IMG/VR virus record: IMGVR_UViG_3300030389_002262
Location: 1 to 32,190 of that record
Strand: one strand, 5' to 3'
DNA: 32,190 nt
Origin: a virus
Part shown: positions 14,027 to 31,348 of the stretch, piece by piece
Numbering within the stretch: position 1 is the stretch's first letter
Layout: every line of letters begins with the position of its first letter
The notes under the pieces: model-generated
Database searches by the model: none
The model's input: the letters and a program-made list of their open reading frames with translations, nothing else
What the model was told of the DNA's origin: nothing
Position numbers and translations under genes: made by a program

Positions 14027-17000
14027 CTTTTCTATATAAATCAAGATTACCAGAAAAATATCAAAACGAGATATTAAGAAGTTATTCTAATAATCAATCT
14101 TTTGTTCCAGAGCAAAGACCCACTTGGGGTGATACTTGGGCTGCTCAAATTTCTTATACATATGGTCGTATTAAAGAACGAATATCAGATGTTTATACTT
14201 ATGGTCGTGACCCAACTCGTACAGGTTATTATGCTAAACGTGACAAAAATTATAATGCTTTTGATGATTTATTTGGTTATGAAGATTATGCTGATTACTT
14301 AACAACCAATGCTGTAAATGCAGAACATATGGCAATATTAAAAAATAGAATAGAGTATAATAAAAAAACAAGACAAGTGTTAGCTGATTCAAGTTTGTTA
14401 AACCAATTTACAGCTGGTTTTTTTGACCCTGTTAATTTGGTTGCTCTTCCTTTTGGTGGACCAGCTATAGGAATAGGAAGGTCTGCATTAAGAGTAGGTG
14501 CAGGTGTTGGTGTTATTACAGCTGGTCAAGAATTAGCTCGCGCTCCTTTTGACCCATTAAACCAACCTTACGAGGTAGCAATTAATATGGCTTTTGGTAT
14601 TGGTGCTGGCACTATTCTTGGAGGTTTAACTGGTATAGCACCAACTTTAAAAGCTAAAGCTATAAAAACAGAACAAGCAGAAATGGATTCTTTCTTAGCT
14701 AATGTTGGTGGAATTAAAGCAGATGAATATTTCCCAGGTCCAAATCAAATTGATAGAAGTCCATTTGCAAATGTATCTAATGAAAATTTAATTAAACAAA
14801 AAACTGTTAAAGATGATGAACTAAAAAAACTTACAGATGAACATGAATCTATACGCAAAAGATTTTATAATGGTGAAGATGTTTATAATAAACTTACAAG
14901 TTTAGAAAATAAAATATCAAATCTAAAAACAGAAATTAATCCTCTTAAAATTGAAAGTAAGCTTAGATTAATTGATGATGCAATGTCTGGTAAACAAGAT
15001 TTTAAAATTGCAAGTAATGCTTTAGCAGATGGCTTGTTATATAATCTTGTGTCTGTTCCTCTTAGAAGAGTGATTAATAGTAAAGCTGGCAATAAAACTA
15101 AACTTATGACTATGCGATTAGCTGCTGACAATGGTTTTTTAACAACACTTGAACAGATGGGATTAACAGCTTCAAAAGGTGTCTATCAATTAAGTCAAAC
15201 ACGTATGGGTGAAATGTATAAAGTTATGCAATCTATTACTAATGATTGGAGAAATCATGCAGGTAAACAAGAAGCATTTCAAAAAATGACTTATAACATT
15301 TCTAATACTTCTCAAAGATTAAAAAATTTATACAATAAAGTTGATTCTACAGATTATCTAAATGTTAATCCTAAAGATTTAACATTACAAATGTATATGA
15401 AAAATGTAAATTATCATAGAACTTTTAAAACACCATTAGATGAGCTTACAGAAGCACAACGAAAATCAATAAAAGCATTAGATACTTTCTATGAAACATA
15501 TAATCAAAGATTACAAAGTGTTGGTTTGTTAGGTCAGTTTGATAACATTAATCGTTCTTTGGGTATTAAAGAAAAACAATTATTAAAAGTAAAAAAAGAA
15601 TATAATATACACACAGAAACACAACCAAAAGAAACTGAATTTAAATCAATTTTAGAAAATAGGATTAAAGAACTTAATGAAGAAATAATTGAGTTACAAG
15701 GTTCAGCAAAATTTGTTGATGATGTAACTGAAGATAAAGTTTTTAATCCTAGATTTTATAACAAACAAGCTATACTTGATAATAGAGAAAAGTTTGAACA
15801 AATTATAAAAGATTCTTTTTTACGTGACCCATTTATTTATGTAAAAAAAGGAAATGAATTTGTTAAAGAACCAATGGCAATTGACGAAGAATCATTATTA
15901 AAAAGAGCTAAACAAGTTACAAATAATATACTTGGTGAAAATGATATTGCTAATTTAGATATGACATATAATGGTTCTGGTCGTTCAAAACATTTAAGGC
16001 ATAGACAAATTTCTGCAACTGACCAAGAATTATTTGAGTTTCTTGAACAAGACCCATTAAAAGTAATGAGAGCATATGTATCTAAGGTTGCACCTGCTTA
16101 TGAATTTGCTAGAGCTTTTAATGGTAAATCTATTAAAGATATTAGACATGAAATTTATGAAGATACTTTAAATAATGGTGGTACACTTAAAGATGCTTAT
16201 AAACATTTTAAAGAGTTTAAACATTTATATGATAGAATAGTTGGAGTTACAGTTAAAAATCCAGATAGATTAAGTTATCAAACAGCAAATGTTATTAGGT
16301 CATTAGCACAATTGAATTTTTTAGGTAGAGCTGTTTATTCTACTATTTCTGAACCTGCAAAATTATTCCATGACCATCATTATAAAGATGTATTTAAAGG
16401 TATGTTTACTTTAATAGAAGCAGGTTTTAAAGGAGAGGGTGGTAAGATAGCTCGTATGCAAGCTGATGAAGTTATGAAAGCAGGTGAAGCATTAGATATT
16501 GTTTTGCAATCTACACATCTTAGATTTATGGATGATTTAAAAAGTAATCCTTTGCAAAGTAATATATGGGATAAATCAAGAGATGTATTTTTTACATTAA
16601 ATGGATTGGCTCCTGTTACTAATATGCTTAAACAATTAGATGGTATTATACGTCAGCATACTATCATTGATAATTCTTTAAAAGTTAAACATGGACTAGC
16701 TACAAAAGAAGAAAGACTTTTTTTATTACGATATGGTATTGATGAAGATATGGCTAATCGTATAGCAAAAGCAAAATGGCAAGAAACTGATTCTGGTTTA
16801 TATTTTGCAAATACAGAAGAGTGGCTTAATGCAAAAGAATTTGACCATATTACAAGTGTTAAAGTAATTTCATCTTCAAGTGATGCTCCAGAATGGAAAG
16901 GAAAACAAGGTGTTGCTGCTTTTGCACGAAAAGAAAAAAAATCAGTTAATAAAATAGAAATAAGAAATGTTAAAACAAATGAATTAATAGATTCTTATCA

Positions 17001-26908: not shown

Positions 26909-27161
26909 TGTTGTTCTCCTTGTTATTACTTAAATCTACTATAATTTGTGGTCTTTGTAAAGGTTCCTTTGCAAAAAAAGCGTGTCGTTCAGCATGAGTG
27001 AAAAAGAAAACATCACTATGATTATGCCATTCACACTCAGCAATAATATCGTGATGTGCATATGGTTTAAGATATTCCAAAGCTACATTACATTCATCAA
27101 AAGAATTAAACTCAAGAAATGCAAACAATAATACTTTTGTACCTGTTGCTACACTACTCAT
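26898..27161 (-). CDS. Small protein upstream of the exonuclease, function unknown
   Basis: 87 residues. The first half is hydrophobic/helical (TKVLLFAFLEFNSFDECNVALEYLKPYAHHDIIAECEWHNHSDVFFF) and the tail is Asn/Glu/Lys-rich. Histidines and cysteines (HH, C..WHNH) could bind metal but form no motif I recognise. It overlaps both neighbours (8 bases upstream, 11 downstream), so it belongs to the replication operon. A role in replication or recombination is only contextual. Confidence 0.72.
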   Translation of the reverse strand: MSSVATGTKVLLFAFLEFNSFDECNVALEYLKPYAHHDIIAECEWHNHSDVFFFTHAERHAFFAKEPLQRPQIIVDLSNNKENNNEK

Positions 27162-27762
27162 AACTTGCTTTCATCCCTTTGATTGTATCAACTAACAATG
27201 TTTTTCTAGATACATACCAGCTTTCGATATGCTGGTAGTATTGACTAAATGAAGTTGGAAAGTTTTTCTCTCTGATTGATAACTCTCTCAATGCTGTGAT
27301 AACAATATCAGCTGGATAAATAGATAATCTTTCTCCCAAAGCTTTTATTCTTACAGACAAATCCTCACCTGTTTCATTGAATGGCTTCTGAGTAAGCGCA
27401 GAAAGGTGTACAAGGCGCTTAACACAATCTTCTATAGGTAGACCTACCATTGTAGAAGCGACAGCTGTATAAGCTTTTTCTGCCATCTCCTTTGATTTAT
27501 AGGTAGCTTCATAAAGATTTATTCTTGAGTCTTTACCAAACGAATAACTAATTCTTGGTGGATAAATGTGATAAGACTTGAGAGTAGAAAGAAGTTCTTT
27601 CTCCGTTTCGAATGGGTTTGCTACTTCCGTTAGTTTTTTGATTGCCAACTCTCTCTGCTTCGAACTTAACTGCATTCCTAATCCAGTTTCTGTAGGCTGC
27701 GTTGACATCAACAAATTTATTTCCTTTGGATTGGTGGTAATCAATGAACTTATCTGTTTCAT
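27154..27762 (-). CDS. Possible helicase-loader-like replication protein
   Basis: 202 residues from ATG 27762. Helical. The region RIKALGERLSIYPADIVITALRELSIREKNFPTSFSQYYQHIESW (about 126-170) has the layout Y...L..yP.d.v..Al.......kfFPs...l of small phage proteins next to replication initiators that are thought to load or modulate the helicase (G39P-like plan). This is a by-eye resemblance, not a firm family call. The start is uncertain: GGGAGG lies 13 bases before 27762, a little far, while in-frame ATGs at 27708 and 27675 have weaker sites. Even the shortest version overlaps the preceding gene by 128 bases. Confidence 0.75.
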   Translation of the reverse strand: MKQISSLITTNPKEINLLMSTQPTETGLGMQLSSKQRELAIKKLTEVANPFETEKELLSTLKSYHIYPPRISYSFGKDSRINLYEATYKSKEMAEKAYTAVASTMVGLPIEDCVKRLVHLSALTQKPFNETGEDLSVRIKALGERLSIYPADIVITALRELSIREKNFPTSFSQYYQHIESWYVSRKTLLVDTIKGMKASYE

Positions 27763-28177
27763 TTTTAAAATCTATCCTCCCATGTTTGATAGTTAGTTTC
27801 TCTTGTAATTCTTTTGTTGGAAAATAATCTTCCTTTATTAATTGCTTTATAGGTTTACTAATAGGTTTGTGTCGCTGTGTGCGAGAGGGGGTATCGCAGA
27901 CTGCGATAGGGGTATCGCTCTCTGCTAGTACCAACTGATACATAGTAGACGTTGCTGGTCGTTGTTGTCTTTTAATGAACCCATTTGTTTCAAGATAGTC
28001 TAGCTTTCTAGCAACTGTAGCTATGTGCATCTCTGTTCTTTTAGCTAATGTATTGAGTGATGGATAGCATTGACCTGTATCTTCATTAGAATAATCTGCA
28101 AGAACTAACAGCAACCATTTAGCTAATGGGTCTTTTACATTTATTTTAATTGTTTGTGCCATTAATAAAAAAGACAT
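27548..28177 (-). CDS. Replication initiator-like protein, N-terminal helix-turn-helix
   Basis: 209 residues. Residues about 15-80 form a winged helix-turn-helix of the HTH_36 type: DPLAKWLLLVLADYSNEDTGQCYPSLNTLAKRTEMHIATVARKLDYLETNGFI. A charged linker follows (about 85-135). The C-terminal part has TDKFIDYHQSKGNKFVDVNAAYRNWIRNAVKF (about 141-172), the F.dYh..kG.....d..aawrnWir motif seen at the end of many phage initiators. This two-part plan resembles lambda O: origin binding plus helicase loading. The linker DNA holds iteron-like repeats (27880-27918). ATG 28177 follows GGAGAAG and shares a base with the upstream stop (TAATG). The tail overlaps the next gene in another frame. Confidence 0.87.
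   Translation of the reverse strand: MSFLLMAQTIKINVKDPLAKWLLLVLADYSNEDTGQCYPSLNTLAKRTEMHIATVARKLDYLETNGFIKRQQRPATSTMYQLVLAESDTPIAVCDTPSRTQRHKPISKPIKQLIKEDYFPTKELQEKLTIKHGRIDFKNETDKFIDYHQSKGNKFVDVNAAYRNWIRNAVKFEAERVGNQKTNGSSKPIRNGERTSFYSQVLSHLSTKN
27880..27918. repeat. Iteron-like repeats and palindrome, candidate replication origin
   Basis: TGCGAGAGGGGGTATCGC (27880-27897) and TGCGATAGGGGTATCGC (27902-27918) are near-identical direct repeats, 22 bases apart, with one substitution and one extra G. Each is itself an interrupted palindrome; the second is perfect, GCGATA-GGGG-TATCGC. Between them TATCGCA-GAC-TGCGATA (27892-27908) is a perfect 7-bp palindrome. A partial GTGTCGC precedes at about 27869. 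The 60 bases 27871-27930 are 58% G+C, and AT-rich DNA flanks the left side (27835-27868). All lie in the linker codons of the initiator gene, as in the lambda O gene. Confidence 0.6.
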
Positions 28178-28500
28178 TACTTCTCCATAAATTTTTCAAA
28201 AGATTCTTGTGTAAATATTATGAGTACACCACTTTCATCTTTTGGTTTTGTTCTACGTTTAAATAATACTAAGTCTTTGTTTTTAAATAAAGAAAAAGGA
28301 TTTGGAAATTTAGATTTATCTCTATATTTTACTTCACAAATAAACTTTTTACCATTGTGATTTATAACTAAGTCACCAATATATTCACCACCTAATGCAC
28401 CAGACATTGGTTGTCGTTTGACATTGATGCCTATTTTTTTGAGCCACGTTTCAAACCACTTTTCATGGTAGATTCCCTTGTTGCGATTTTTATTTGCCAA
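28177..28500 (-). CDS. Hjc-like Holliday junction resolvase (PD-(D/E)xK)
   Basis: 107 residues if started at TTG 28500, which follows GGGAG by eight bases; an in-frame TTG at 28527 lacks a comparable site. With this start the acidic residues fall at E13, D43, E56 and K58 (YHEKWFE, GDLVI, FICEVKYR), in the same order and almost the same positions as the catalytic E, D, E and K of archaeal Hjc resolvases. PMSGALGGEY before the D is also typical. It should cut four-way junctions formed by recombination or replication so that concatemers can be packaged. It overlaps the zinc-ribbon-like gene upstream and forms TAATG with the initiator gene. Confidence 0.82.
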   Translation of the reverse strand: MANKNRNKGIYHEKWFETWLKKIGINVKRQPMSGALGGEYIGDLVINHNGKKFICEVKYRDKSKFPNPFSLFKNKDLVLFKRRTKPKDESGVLIIFTQESFEKFMEK

Positions 28501-28658
28501 TCGTCTTTCTCCCAACAGTTTACACAAATAGTATTATAAACTGGTGGTTGCATATCTACTTGAATATCCAACCACCAAGTTGTTTTTACACCACAAGCAT
28601 AACACTTACGTACTTGGGGAGATTTTTGTGAGAAAATATCTTTTGTATCTTTTACCAT
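28431..28658 (-). CDS. Small zinc-ribbon-like protein
   Basis: 75 residues from ATG 28658, preceded by a purine-rich GGGAAGAGAAAG; a GTG at 28679 in frame is possible. Two CxxC pairs, C19-Y-A-C22 and C45-V-N-C48, separated by about 22 residues, suggest one structural zinc site as in a zinc ribbon. The C-terminus is basic (STMKSGLKRGSKK). A nucleic-acid-binding or regulatory role is plausible but unproven. It overlaps the genes on both sides by 53 and 70 bases, unusually much even for this compact operon. Confidence 0.75.
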   Translation of the reverse strand: MVKDTKDIFSQKSPQVRKCYACGVKTTWWLDIQVDMQPPVYNTICVNCWEKDDWQIKIATRESTMKSGLKRGSKK

Positions 28659-28836
28659 CTTTCTCTTCCCAAGTATCACTAATGGATAATCCTTTTTCCC
28701 ATTTGAGCGTATGTATTACTGCTGCTAATCGAAAAGAACCATACTGATACAAAGCATCAAGTGGTGTAATACTTTTACCATCTTGTAAATGCTGTGTAAT
28801 TTTTTGTATTTGTGTTTCTATTCTGGGTGTTTCCAT
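28606..28836 (-). CDS. Small helix-turn-helix protein
   Basis: 76 residues. IQKITQHLQDGKSITPLDALYQYGSFRLAAVIHTLKWEKGLSISDTWEEKDGKRYKRYFL is the typical small phage helix-turn-helix layout (..L..G.siTplDAl..yg..RLaa.I..Lr..G..I.......gk.y..Y.L), similar to HTH_39. Such proteins are thought to bind DNA and may regulate early transcription; no target is evident here. AAGGAGG about ten bases before ATG 28836 supports the start. It overlaps the upstream gene by 19 bases. Confidence 0.85.
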   Translation of the reverse strand: METPRIETQIQKITQHLQDGKSITPLDALYQYGSFRLAAVIHTLKWEKGLSISDTWEEKDGKRYKRYFLTKISPST

Positions 28837-29126
28837 TGGTACTGCTCCTCCTTATTGGTTTCAATGTCTTGTGATTTGCCACCATATTCAACGACAATTT
28901 TATTAACATCATAATAATTTTCCATTGTATTAGCATCACAACCTATCTCTTGCCCTGCTAATATTGCATGATATTTTAACTGAATTAAATCTCTTAATGC
29001 TATGGCATCAGATAAAATACTTGCACGAAATTGTTGGTAATTAACTAATGTACCACTTGTTTGTAACTCTAATAAAAAAGCATCAAACAATTTAGCTTTA
29101 AAAAAATATATACCCATACTATCCAT
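28818..29126 (-). CDS. Small early protein, function unknown
   Basis: 102 residues, mostly helical: IYFFKAKLFDAFLLELQTSGTLVNYQQFRASILSDAIALRDLIQLKYHAILAGQEIGCDANTMENYYDVNKIV, then a charged tail. No family recognised. ATG 29126 follows GGGAG; a second ATG nine bases on (29117) is possible. It overlaps the upstream gene by eight bases and the helix-turn-helix gene by 19, so it is part of the early operon. Confidence 0.72.
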   Translation of the reverse strand: MDSMGIYFFKAKLFDAFLLELQTSGTLVNYQQFRASILSDAIALRDLIQLKYHAILAGQEIGCDANTMENYYDVNKIVVEYGGKSQDIETNKEEQYQWKHPE

Positions 29127-29319
29127 AGTTATAACTCTCCCATCCTTCTAACATTATTTTTTGTATTACAGATACTGGTGTAGATTGATTGACACCATAG
29201 TGTGTAAAGCAATGAACATCTTCTCCATTACCATGACCACCAATCCAGCTTATATTAAATGTTGCTGAACCATTCCAAGTAACTAAATGATTTTCTATTA
29301 ATAAACTTAATTCACCCAT
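29119..29319 (-). CDS. Small early protein, function unknown
   Basis: 66 residues, rich in Gly, Asn, His and Trp (LVTWNGSATFNISWIGGHGNGEDVHCFTHYG), with a short C-terminal helix ending ..MLEGWESYNYG. No recognised motif. AAGGAT before ATG 29319, and the shared base with the upstream stop (TAATG), argue that it is translated. Function unknown. Confidence 0.68.
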   Translation of the reverse strand: MGELSLLIENHLVTWNGSATFNISWIGGHGNGEDVHCFTHYGVNQSTPVSVIQKIMLEGWESYNYG

Positions 29320-29738
29320 TATATATCCTTTCTAAAACTATATACATTTACGTTTCTACTTTTTTGTTTTGTAAATGTTTTACATTGTTTATAAATCAAA
29401 CCACGTGCTACTGCATGATATAATGTAGACGTAATTTGATTTGCTGTTTGATTAAATTCTTTTCCAATTTCTCTTGCTGTTAATGGACCCATCTTTTTTA
29501 ATAGTTTGATTACCGGTCGAACATTATCAAGATTGTATTGTGCTTTCTTCTGCACCATTGATGGTAAACGACCACGTTTATTTTTTAAATATCTTTGCAA
29601 TTCATCTTCATGCCATTTGTTTCTGAACATAATATGAATTGCGTTTTGATACTCGATAGGTTTCTTTGATAAATATTCTTGAACTTTATTATTATAAAAA
29701 TTATCAAGAAGATATTCTGTTGCTGAACTAACAATCAT
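29319..29738 (-). CDS. Winged-helix-like DNA-binding protein
   Basis: 139 residues from ATG 29738, chosen because AGGAG lies eight bases upstream; a longer version from 29786 would lie inside the upstream gene without such a site. The N-terminal half is helical (FRNKWHEDELQRYLKNKRGRLPSMV). Residues about 75-120, VRPVIKLLKKMGPLTAREIGKEFNQTANQITSTLYHAVARGLIYK, form a clear winged helix of the MarR/DprA-end type. A regulator of early genes or of the control region at 30637-30910 is a reasonable inference. Confidence 0.8.
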   Translation of the reverse strand: MIVSSATEYLLDNFYNNKVQEYLSKKPIEYQNAIHIMFRNKWHEDELQRYLKNKRGRLPSMVQKKAQYNLDNVRPVIKLLKKMGPLTAREIGKEFNQTANQITSTLYHAVARGLIYKQCKTFTKQKSRNVNVYSFRKDI

Positions 29739-29979
29739 TAACTGCACTCCTAATATTGAATGGTATTTGATTTTCTTTATGTTCAAGATATTCTAAAAAG
29801 TTTTTATCTTCCATTTCTTTTAAATGAATATTGATTTTGTTAAGAATAAATACTGCCATTTCGTAACGACCGAAAAGAATACCTTCATCTTTTCTATCTT
29901 CTGGTACTTGATGTTGTTCAGTATATACTTGTGTTTCTGTTACACAAATGTCTTTTAATGTAAGAATAAAATTGTCCAT
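29728..29979 (-). CDS. Small acidic early protein, function unknown
   Basis: 83 residues from ATG 29979, fixed by AAGGAG five bases upstream; the longer frame from 30054 lacks a site and would run through the membrane-peptide gene. Sequence DNFILTLKDICVTETQVYTEQHQVPEDRKDEGILFGRYEMAVFILNKINIHLKEMEDKNFLEYLEHKE is soluble and acidic with no known motif. It overlaps the winged-helix gene by 11 bases. Confidence 0.75.
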   Translation of the reverse strand: MDNFILTLKDICVTETQVYTEQHQVPEDRKDEGILFGRYEMAVFILNKINIHLKEMEDKNFLEYLEHKENQIPFNIRSAVNDC

Positions 29980-29999
29980 GTGTTCTCCTTTCATAGACT

Positions 30000-30113
30000 T
30001 TAAAGATGTGGGTAGATGAATATTAACCAATTGATTCCACCTACTATTAAACAATACGAAATTATTACACCAATTGCAACCATTGTTTTAATAAATAAAA
30101 GTTTAGCCAACAT
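30000..30113 (-). CDS. 37-residue membrane peptide in the early operon
   Basis: A small frame with one strong transmembrane segment (about residues 6-31, VAIGVIISYCLIVGGINWLI), beginning MLAKLLFIKTM and ending IFIYPHL. AAGGAG lies eight bases before ATG 30113, as good as any gene in this operon, and its end is 20 bases before the next start. Early phage membrane peptides can act on the host envelope, for example by excluding other phages or altering permeability, but nothing here shows which. I regard it as real because of its ribosome site. Confidence 0.7.
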   Translation of the reverse strand: MLAKLLFIKTMVAIGVIISYCLIVGGINWLIFIYPHL

Positions 30114-30132
30114 AATTATATCTCCTTTGTTG

Positions 30133-30164
30133 GTCCCAAAACAGAGGGGTTATGGGACTTTTTT
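30133..30164 (+). terminator. Hairpin with + strand U-tract in the early leader
   Basis: GTCCCA (30133-30138) pairs with TGGGAC (30153-30158), followed by six T (30159-30164) on the + strand. It would stop rightward transcription entering the early operon from the antisense side, though no rightward gene precedes it. On the - strand the same hairpin lies just before the AAGGAG of the membrane peptide and might affect its translation. Confidence 0.55.
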
Positions 30165-30190
30165 AAATACGACGTTTTTAAGACGCTTTA

Positions 30191-30235
30191 CCACAAGGCA
30201 GACATTTGCTTTTTGATGGCAATGTCTACCTGTGG
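30191..30235. repeat. Long imperfect hairpin in the early intergenic leader
   Basis: The arms 30191-30209 and 30219-30235 pair almost throughout (CCACA-GG-AGACATT-GC with CCTGTGG on the other side), with two single-base bulges and one mismatch, around a nine-base loop. It lies in a 136-base gap between two leftward genes, an unusually long gap for this operon. No U-run follows on either strand, so a simple terminator is unlikely. An mRNA-processing, stability or protein-binding site is possible. Confidence 0.75.
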
Positions 30236-30249
30236 AAAAGCTGCTGCTC

Positions 30250-30636
30250 TTACTCCTTTCCTAGCTCTTGATTGCTTGTTGGTAATGTAAGGTTAGGCAT
30301 TGGGAACTCTTTTCCAGATAACTCCTTATACAGTTTCCTTGCTGAATCTAATCTCTTGAGATGATGTGCTAGATTAGCTTGCATATCTGCATTGTAATCT
30401 GTGATTTCTTTCCAACGCTTGTCATCTTTCTCTTGTATACCAGCTGACTTTGCATTTGATTCCATCATGTATGCGTTGTTTGCTCTTTCTAGTATACCAG
30501 ACCATCTATTCTCTATTTGAGTTTGAGTAAGAGAACGTACTAGGTGATAACATATGTTTCTCATTTCACCTATTTGTGTAGATGTATTATATCCAGAGAT
30601 TTCTGTTTTGTAGTTATTGTATAATGAATTAGCCAT
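30250..30636 (-). CDS. First early gene: helical protein of unknown function
   Basis: 128 residues from ATG 30636, with AAGGAG six bases upstream; an in-frame extension to 30675 would run into the regulatory repeats. Mostly helical and polar: TSTQIGEMRNICYHLVRSLTQTQIENRWSGILERANNAYMMESNAK, then a second long helix, and a short Pro/Leu/Thr tail. No recognised family. As the first gene after the control region it should be made earliest, so a host-takeover or regulatory role is plausible but unproven. Confidence 0.8.
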   Translation of the reverse strand: MANSLYNNYKTEISGYNTSTQIGEMRNICYHLVRSLTQTQIENRWSGILERANNAYMMESNAKSAGIQEKDDKRWKEITDYNADMQANLAHHLKRLDSARKLYKELSGKEFPMPNLTLPTSNQELGKE

Positions 30637-30847
30637 GTCTAGCTCCTTTTCTATGTTTAAGTTTAAATCAGACAAATCTGATAGGGCGTGACAGCATAAA
30701 GCGACAGCGACCCATTTCCGAAGGATTTATGTTAACGCAAGGCCGAAGAACGCCAGTGTGCCTTGCGATGACAAATGTGGTTATGCGATAACGAACTAGC
30801 AGATTTGTGTGATTTAAACGTATAGATAAGGTGCTTGATATGGTTAA
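30629..30847. repeat. Inverted duplication of the early-gene leader
   Basis: The leftward leader is repeated in inverted orientation on the right. The upper blocks, - strand 30684-30661 and + strand 30796-30819, match in 22 of 24 bases, with core AGATTTGTSTGATTTAAAC. A lower block, - strand 30654-30629 and + strand 30822-30847, matches in 21 of 26: ATAGAxAAGGxGCTxGAxATGG, including the ribosome site and start codon. The left copy also holds the 16-base palindrome ATCAGACAAATCTGAT. The two copies flank CGCAAGGC (30736-30743) with its inverse GCCTTGCG (30760-30767). Confidence 0.85.
30763..30792 (+). promoter_or_regulatory. Operator-like palindrome GTTAT-GCG-ATAAC with possible promoter
   Basis: GTTATGCGATAAC (30780-30792) is a perfect 13-bp palindrome. 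Its right half reads GATAAC and lies 18 bases after TTGCGA (30763-30768), a possible weak -10/-35 pair. The centre contains TGCGATA, the same core as the iterons in the initiator gene. Confidence 0.55.
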
Positions 30848-30864
30848 CCGAGTTATTCGATAAC
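30835..30864 (+). promoter_or_regulatory. Second operator-like palindrome GTTAT-TCG-ATAAC with possible promoter
   Basis: GTTATTCGATAAC (30852-30864) is a second perfect 13-bp palindrome with the same half-sites as the one 72 bases upstream. GATAAC in its right half is 18 bases after TTGATA (30835-30840), giving a better -35 match than the first copy and the same geometry. A repressor bound here would cover the -10. Confidence 0.55.
30840..30863 (+). other. Seven-codon leader frame MVNRVIR
   Basis: ATG 30840 has AAGG about nine bases upstream and reads seven codons to TAA, ending inside the second palindrome. The start region is a duplicate of the leftward gene's start, so this is either the stub of a lost gene or a leader peptide on the rightward transcript. 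Confidence 0.35.
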
Positions 30865-30925
30865 TACACAACAGGAATCACCCCTTGAGTTTGCGTTAAT
30901 ACAACAATGGTTGCGTAAATACATC

Positions 30926-30955
30926 TTGACACGTAATATGCACATAGTGTTTAAG
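30926..30955 (+). promoter_or_regulatory. Possible promoter for TerS
   Basis: A perfect TTGACA (30926-30931) is followed 18 bases later by TTTAAG (30950-30955), four of six to the -10 consensus. It lies 34 bases before the preferred TerS start and would drive TerS, the small genes and, through the map junction, TerL and the late region. Confidence 0.45.
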
Positions 30956-30988
30956 GGGGGTAAGGGGGGATTCCTTTTGAACAAATTG

Positions 30989-31348
30989 ATGAAACTTACG
31001 GATAAACAGATGAAGCTTGTTGATACACTCGTAGCAAATGGCTGTAGTATTACTGAAGCTTCACAAATTGCTGGTTACGCTAAAGGCAATGCAGGTAGAG
31101 TTACTGCTAGCAAGGCACTTAAGCTTCCACACGTTCAAGAGTACATGATGAAATGTGTAGCTGAATCCATTGGCGTTAATGCTACGATTGCTAGCAGTAA
31201 GCTAGTGAAACTAGCTACAGGTGCTAAGAGTGAGTACGTACAGCTTGAAGCTAGTAAAGATATTTTAGATAGAGCTGGTTTTAAAGCACCAGACAAGCAC
31301 CTGCACCTGCATAAAGGTGACATCAAAGTCAGCATTGACTTAAGTTAA
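30989..31348 (+). CDS. Terminase small subunit (TerS)-like protein
   Basis: 119 residues from ATG 30989. MKLTDKQMKLVDTLVANGCSITEASQIAGYAKGNAGRVTASKALKLPHVQEYMM has the L(t).kq..lv..l..g.s.teAa..AGY......a..as..L..p.V..y. layout of phage small terminases, with an N-terminal helix-turn-helix and a C-terminal helical part. It should recognise the packaging site and regulate TerL. TTG 30977 (AAGGGGGG upstream) is an alternative start; earlier ones would contain the candidate promoter. G+C is about 45% in a sampled 60-base stretch, higher than most of the genome, and CTAG tetranucleotides cluster here. A hairpin AGCTAGT-GAA-ACTAGCT lies inside at 31200-31216. Confidence 0.8.
   Translation: MKLTDKQMKLVDTLVANGCSITEASQIAGYAKGNAGRVTASKALKLPHVQEYMMKCVAESIGVNATIASSKLVKLATGAKSEYVQLEASKDILDRAGFKAPDKHLHLHKGDIKVSIDLS
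31200..31216. repeat. Perfect triloop hairpin inside TerS
   Basis: AGCTAGT (31200-31206) and ACTAGCT (31210-31216) pair perfectly around GAA. An outer TAGCA/TGCTA pair could extend it. It has the same small-loop style as the hairpins downstream of the gene. Confidence 0.7.

Follow-up and report, generated by a model that had tools for sequence, protein, structure and literature searches.

Where replication of this phage starts is the question raised by a group of palindromes lying within the gene for its own replication initiator, which a first-pass annotation had read as a candidate origin of the lambda type. We examined the locus in the window, i.e., the whole 32,190-nucleotide stretch analysed here, which belongs to a 32,857-base virus record, and in the relatives of the initiator gene.

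The phage and its initiator gene

The window has a GC content of 32%. Its portal protein has Pelagibacter phage EXVC031P Hodr (OQ414635) as nearest cultured relative, with 57% identity, and we therefore consider that the phage is probably a pelagiphage-like podovirus; this marine phage probably has SAR11-like bacteria as hosts. No match was obtained by blastn against phages, and scanning genome contigs yielded no relative. An exact-pattern scan with one repeat unit returned 16 loci, among which L026 alone was relevant. A tRNA search found none, and the GC skew of the window, dominated by the gene strand, is uninformative as to a replication start.

The initiator gene (27548-28177, minus strand) encodes an O-like protein of 209 residues that belongs to the HTH_36 family (PF13730; E-value 4.6e-14, 52.4 bits for a cut-off of 25) and matches the PHROG initiator families phrog_1032 (E-value 4.6e-23) and O-like phrog_391 (E-value 1.5e-16). 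In an AlphaFold2 model built from 15 relatives, a winged helix (residues about 3-82) is followed by a disordered linker (residues 86-106, pLDDT <50) and a helical C-terminal domain (residues 122-180). Foldseek searches with the initiator returned generic winged-helix matches alone, none of them under an E-value of 0.001.

Downstream, a 202-residue ORF (27154-27762, minus strand) overlaps the initiator gene out of frame by about 215 bases. It is conserved, being present in every relative examined, and occupies the position of lambda P; it matched no named family, and its product is a candidate helicase loader. Upstream lies a Holliday-junction-resolvase-like gene with a TTG start codon (28177-28527, minus strand; weak match to phrog_23036, E-value 1.3e-4), and a gene of this type is likewise found upstream of the initiator homologue in L026.

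Palindromic sites and their AT-rich flank

On the minus strand, the two direct repeats noticed initially are present at 27880-27897 (GCGATACCCCCTCTCGCA) and 27902-27918 (GCGATACCCCTATCGCA), and the perfect palindrome TATCGCA-GTC-TGCGATA lies between them at 27892-27908. As proposed, they sit in the linker codons of the initiator gene, matching the disordered residues 86-106. The GC content of 27871-27930 is indeed 58.3%, a value reached by 0.09% of 60-bp windows. The repeat unit was defined differently, however: GCGATA-CCCC-TATCGC is out of register, and what the relatives conserve is a 17-bp unit, TRTCGCA-N3-WGCGAYA, with a spacing of 21-22 bp.

Once the register is set by the relatives, a site missed by the first-pass annotation is recognised at 27870-27886, and the site at 27913-27929 appears weak. 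Thus, the perfect palindrome, which aligns with the family unit, is the second of three sites. Site 3 (TCTCGCACACAGCGACA, minus strand) has 1 mismatch to the consensus and is centred 22 bp from site 2; its DNA is conserved in relatives, in another frame. Site 1 (ACTAGCAGAGAGCGATA, minus strand) lies 21 bp from site 2 on the other side and has one half-site conserved with L027. The array consequently consists of tandem, phased inverted repeats, one perfect, one good and one weak, whose arms give one perfect palindrome, one with 5/7 and one with 3/7 pairs. At up to 2 mismatches to the consensus, the 32-kb window contains just two sites, 27892-27908 and 27870-27886. The array spans codons about 83-106 of 209, i.e., the middle of the initiator gene, as in lambda-type origins.

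Could these repeats merely mirror a repetitive, low-complexity linker peptide? When compared with synonymous-codon shuffles of the initiator gene, the direct repeat in the window is not significant and falls within the shuffle range (P about 0.22), because the peptide itself repeats (SDTPIAV-CDTPSRT); we therefore rejected the direct repeat by itself as evidence. The tandem palindromes are modestly significant in the same comparison (P = 0.017). Taken alone, the initial observation is thus weak, and the strength of the case for an origin comes from sequence comparison with the relatives rather than from the window.

AT-rich DNA adjoins the repeats, as had been reported: the GC content of 27835-27869 is 22.9%, compared with 58.3% for 27871-27930. 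The AT-rich stretch (27835-27868, minus strand) contains AAACCTATTA and AAACCTATAA and is a candidate unwinding element, although, when ranked by low stability or low GC, it falls only at about the 8th-9th percentile of this AT-rich genome. A family element, WAACCTATYA, follows directly 3' of the last iteron, and AAC CTA codons are found next to the array in 10/10 lineages checked. In L035-L037, 3' of the array, a AACCTATCA element is duplicated beside the iterons (ACTAACCTATCAACTAACCTATCA in L035).

The palindromes could also act in RNA, as a terminator, an attenuator or a structured element of the early mRNA, given that GCGATACCCCTATCGC could fold as a hairpin (6-bp stem, 4-base loop). This seems hardly credible to us, as no terminator-like site is present in 27100-31200, Rfam gave no match, and neither the 21-bp period nor the covariation with the helix-turn-helix (HTH) described below is explained by RNA.

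Conservation and covariation among relatives

Alignment-based searches for relatives gave 46 and 80 loci, and the family set comprised 94 extracted genes, representing 22 lineages at <80% identity. Linker arrays were observed in 94/94 family genes and all 22 lineages. They contain two or three units, usually with a period of 21 bp, i.e., 7 codons, and the centre of the palindrome coincides with the middle codon.

The initiators of L026 and L027 share 63% protein identity with that of the window. Their linkers contain identical blocks of 25 and 26 bases, although overall identity across the first 327 bases is 78%; L027 carries no perfect palindromic site. We compared the codons of conserved residues between the window and L027. 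The first-pass reading would have been refuted had the repeats been conserved no further than the protein needs, and this was not what we observed: codons are identical at 18/19 positions in the linker versus 29/52 in the N-terminal domain (Fisher P = 0.0017), and versus 74/105 when all of the gene outside the linker is counted (P = 0.025). It should be noted that the C-terminal part of the gene is conserved too, but it overlaps another ORF.

Moreover, the DNA is conserved across a difference in reading frame. As sites 2 and 3 are 22 bp apart in the window instead of 21, site 3 and AAACCTATTA are read in another frame, encoding SRTQRHKPI in the window and, e.g., TVAQCDTNLS in other lineages. 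Nevertheless, the 35 bases at 27852-27886 match L028 and L049 at 27/35 positions each and L032 at 26/35, although these lineages read them in another frame. Further lineages match at 23-24 of 35 bases. Mononucleotide shuffles (n = 300) gave at most 21-22 matches, a level that L059 and L061, both distant, did not exceed.

The half-site is lineage-specific, TRTCGCA-N3-WGCGAYA being the conserved unit of the window's own lineage, and both halves shift together. The pairs observed are TCGCA/TGCGA, TTGCA/TGCAA and GTGCA/TGCAC, with the longer forms GTCGCA/TGCGAC, GTTGCA/TGCAAC and GGTGCA/(T)GCACC, as well as GATGCA/(T)GCATC, CTCCGA/TCGGAG, GTCTC/GAGAC and GTTCGC/(A)CGAAC. In the last unit, 102/132 positions form Watson-Crick pairs, against a mean of 81.1 and a maximum of 96 when right halves are swapped between lineages. 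Across the 22 lineages, such swaps reached the observed pairing in 0/10,000 trials, whether the last, the penultimate or the best unit was used. A change in the right half alters a residue (Asp/Asn), while the matching change in the left half is often silent, and this is not explained by peptide constraint.

These data bear on the peptide explanation raised above. Linker peptides vary widely by lineage (e.g., VAESDT, LRESE, VSHRDE, VRQTN), while the 21-bp palindromic array stays; in addition, half-sites co-vary symmetrically, the DNA is kept across a frame difference and codon identity is in excess. The view that the repeats only reflect the peptide is already contradicted, and we consider it very improbable.

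The first-pass annotation had further predicted that the repeats would co-vary with the HTH, and they do. Iteron distance correlates with HTH distance after C-terminal domain distance has been removed (partial Mantel r = 0.59, P = 0.0002), as does the iteron word when residues 1-38 are controlled for (r = 0.58, P = 0.0004), although the test removes shared ancestry in part only. In the converse direction, partial correlation is less marked (P = 0.069 for the C-terminal domain and 0.055 for residues 1-38). Such covariation would be expected if the initiator recognises the sites in its own gene. In few lineages, residue 56 (A/S versus T) also varies with the fourth base of the 17-bp site (C:G or T:A).

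Reading its own sites would also suit a regulator, and the array could consist of operators through which the HTH protein controls the early operon from its own gene, replication starting elsewhere. The N-terminal fold of the initiator is similar to MarR/ArsR/PerR-type regulators, palindromes fit a dimeric regulator, and conservation alone cannot tell the two roles apart, as conserved in-gene sites could serve autoregulation. However, no second cluster of sites lies near any operon start, the two in-gene sites standing alone at up to 2 mismatches, and the combination of two to three phased sites, an AT-rich flank and an O-like annotation favours an origin; binding by the initiator could, besides, serve both roles. 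We consider a purely regulatory function unlikely. The palindrome array inside the initiator gene is very probably a lambda-type in-gene replication origin; this proposal of the first-pass annotation is supported, on sequence grounds, by the covariation of half-sites with each other and with the HTH and by the frame-independent conservation of the DNA.

Lambda, the wider HTH_36 family and a possible mechanism

The likeness to lambda extends to several features. Gene O of lambda also carries tandem inverted-repeat iterons in its middle (ori, NC_001416 39034-39118), of about 18-19 bp with a spacing of about 20-24 bp; as in the window, an AT-rich stretch follows the iterons, and the 3' end of gene O is overlapped by a second replication gene (PMC7466680), where the window has the ORF of the candidate helicase loader. 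In contrast, the window has fewer and more divergent sites with another iteron sequence, and its protein is shorter (209 vs 299 residues). In lambda, the minimal binding site is a 19-bp imperfect inverted repeat, and the minimal unwinding unit consists of two iterons and the AT-rich region (PMC7466680). By these measures, the two good sites and one weak site of the window would suffice.

The proteins themselves are another matter. Lambda O matches PF04492 (Phage_rep_O), whereas the window protein falls in HTH_36 and has no PF04492 match. Homology to lambda O was unsupported by profile comparison, which gave no direct match (hhalign probability 2%); both proteins match parts of the O-like PHROGs 391, 345 and 678. 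Given that the arrangement is that of lambda and the protein is outside the lambda O family, we propose that the locus works like the lambda ori, not that its protein is a lambda O.

We tested for tandem repeats, against synonymous shuffles, a set of 20 HTH_36 initiator genes drawn from the window's family and from cultured phages that infect other hosts. In 19/20 of them, the strongest repeat starts within residues 75-125 (combined P about 4e-16), and lambda O, with its annotated iterons, gave P = 0.002 in the same test. Among the initiators tested from Salmonella, Klebsiella, Vibrio, Psychrobacter, Microcystis and SfV phages, too, the linker holds the strongest repeat in nearly all. HTH_36, 'primosomal protein I' and O-like initiators (phrog_270, 1032, 391 and 8540) share the N-terminal domain type of the window, and most of those from Salmonella, Klebsiella, Vibrio, SfV and other phages have linker tandem repeats with a period of 17-24 bp. 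They differ from the window in repeat words and periods, and show roughly 23-34% identity over best matches. Our literature search found no paper presenting the linker repeats of HTH_36 initiators as origins.

When viral contigs were scanned blindly for pairs of GCGAYACC words with a spacing of about 21 bp, HTH-like proteins came up among unrelated matches. In L077, L080, L085, L093, L095 and L097, which are unrelated viruses, proteins that look HTH-like by eye have a linker with GCGACACC-type tandem repeats. A TTTGCGACACCCCTTCGACACCCTTGCGACACCC repeat array, possibly an origin or a regulatory array, recurs in many short contigs, overlapped by short ORFs alone (L075, L076, L078, L079, L081, L088-L091, L094, L096, L102, L103 and L105).

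The C-terminal domain of the initiator also stands alone, with about 105 residues, in L001-L009, and in L005 and L006 a segment similar to the window's upstream gene lies in front of it; no HTH_36 match was found in the records of L003, L006 and L007. Like the window, Hodr encodes this C-terminal domain in its early region and has an overlapping ORF downstream, but its N-terminal domain looks, by eye, like an XRE-type HTH rather than HTH_36 (L117, 15431-15958). Within the HTH codons of Hodr, an inverted repeat, CTGACTCTC..GAGAGTCAG (15522-15553), is possibly a site of its own. A gene scan of Hodr, L003, L006 and L007 gave no convincing tandem palindrome array, a weak negative, because the strict threshold misses the window's own array too. 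Given the stand-alone C-terminal domains and the XRE-like HTH of Hodr, the DNA-binding half and its iterons seem exchangeable between phages. We hypothesize, giving it an even chance, that the whole HTH_36 family encodes cognate iterons in the linker, as a co-evolving module of binding domain and target that is swapped while the C-terminal loader domain is retained.

In the most likely mechanism, initiation at the array would proceed as follows. The winged-helix N-terminal domain would bind the palindromic sites as dimers and, the sites being 21-22 bp or about two helical turns apart, an O-some-like complex would form inside the initiator's own gene. This complex would open the AT-rich stretch that follows the sites directly on their 3' side. 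Recruitment of the host replicative helicase would fall to the C-terminal domain, perhaps aided by the product of the downstream ORF that overlaps the initiator gene. With the iterons placed in codons of a disordered linker, their sequence and copy number could evolve with the HTH at a small folding cost. A single stretch of DNA would thus answer to two constraints, as linker peptide and as binding sites, one element being kept even across a change of frame.

For uncultured marine phages, the replication origin is hardly ever known. If our reading is true, the origins of this phage and dozens of relatives could be located from sequence, and their natural variation would provide matched protein-DNA pairs for decoding how winged-helix initiators read iterons. 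Should the broader hypothesis on the HTH_36 module also be true, both the origins and the HTH-to-iteron recognition code would become readable from sequence in many uncultured phages.
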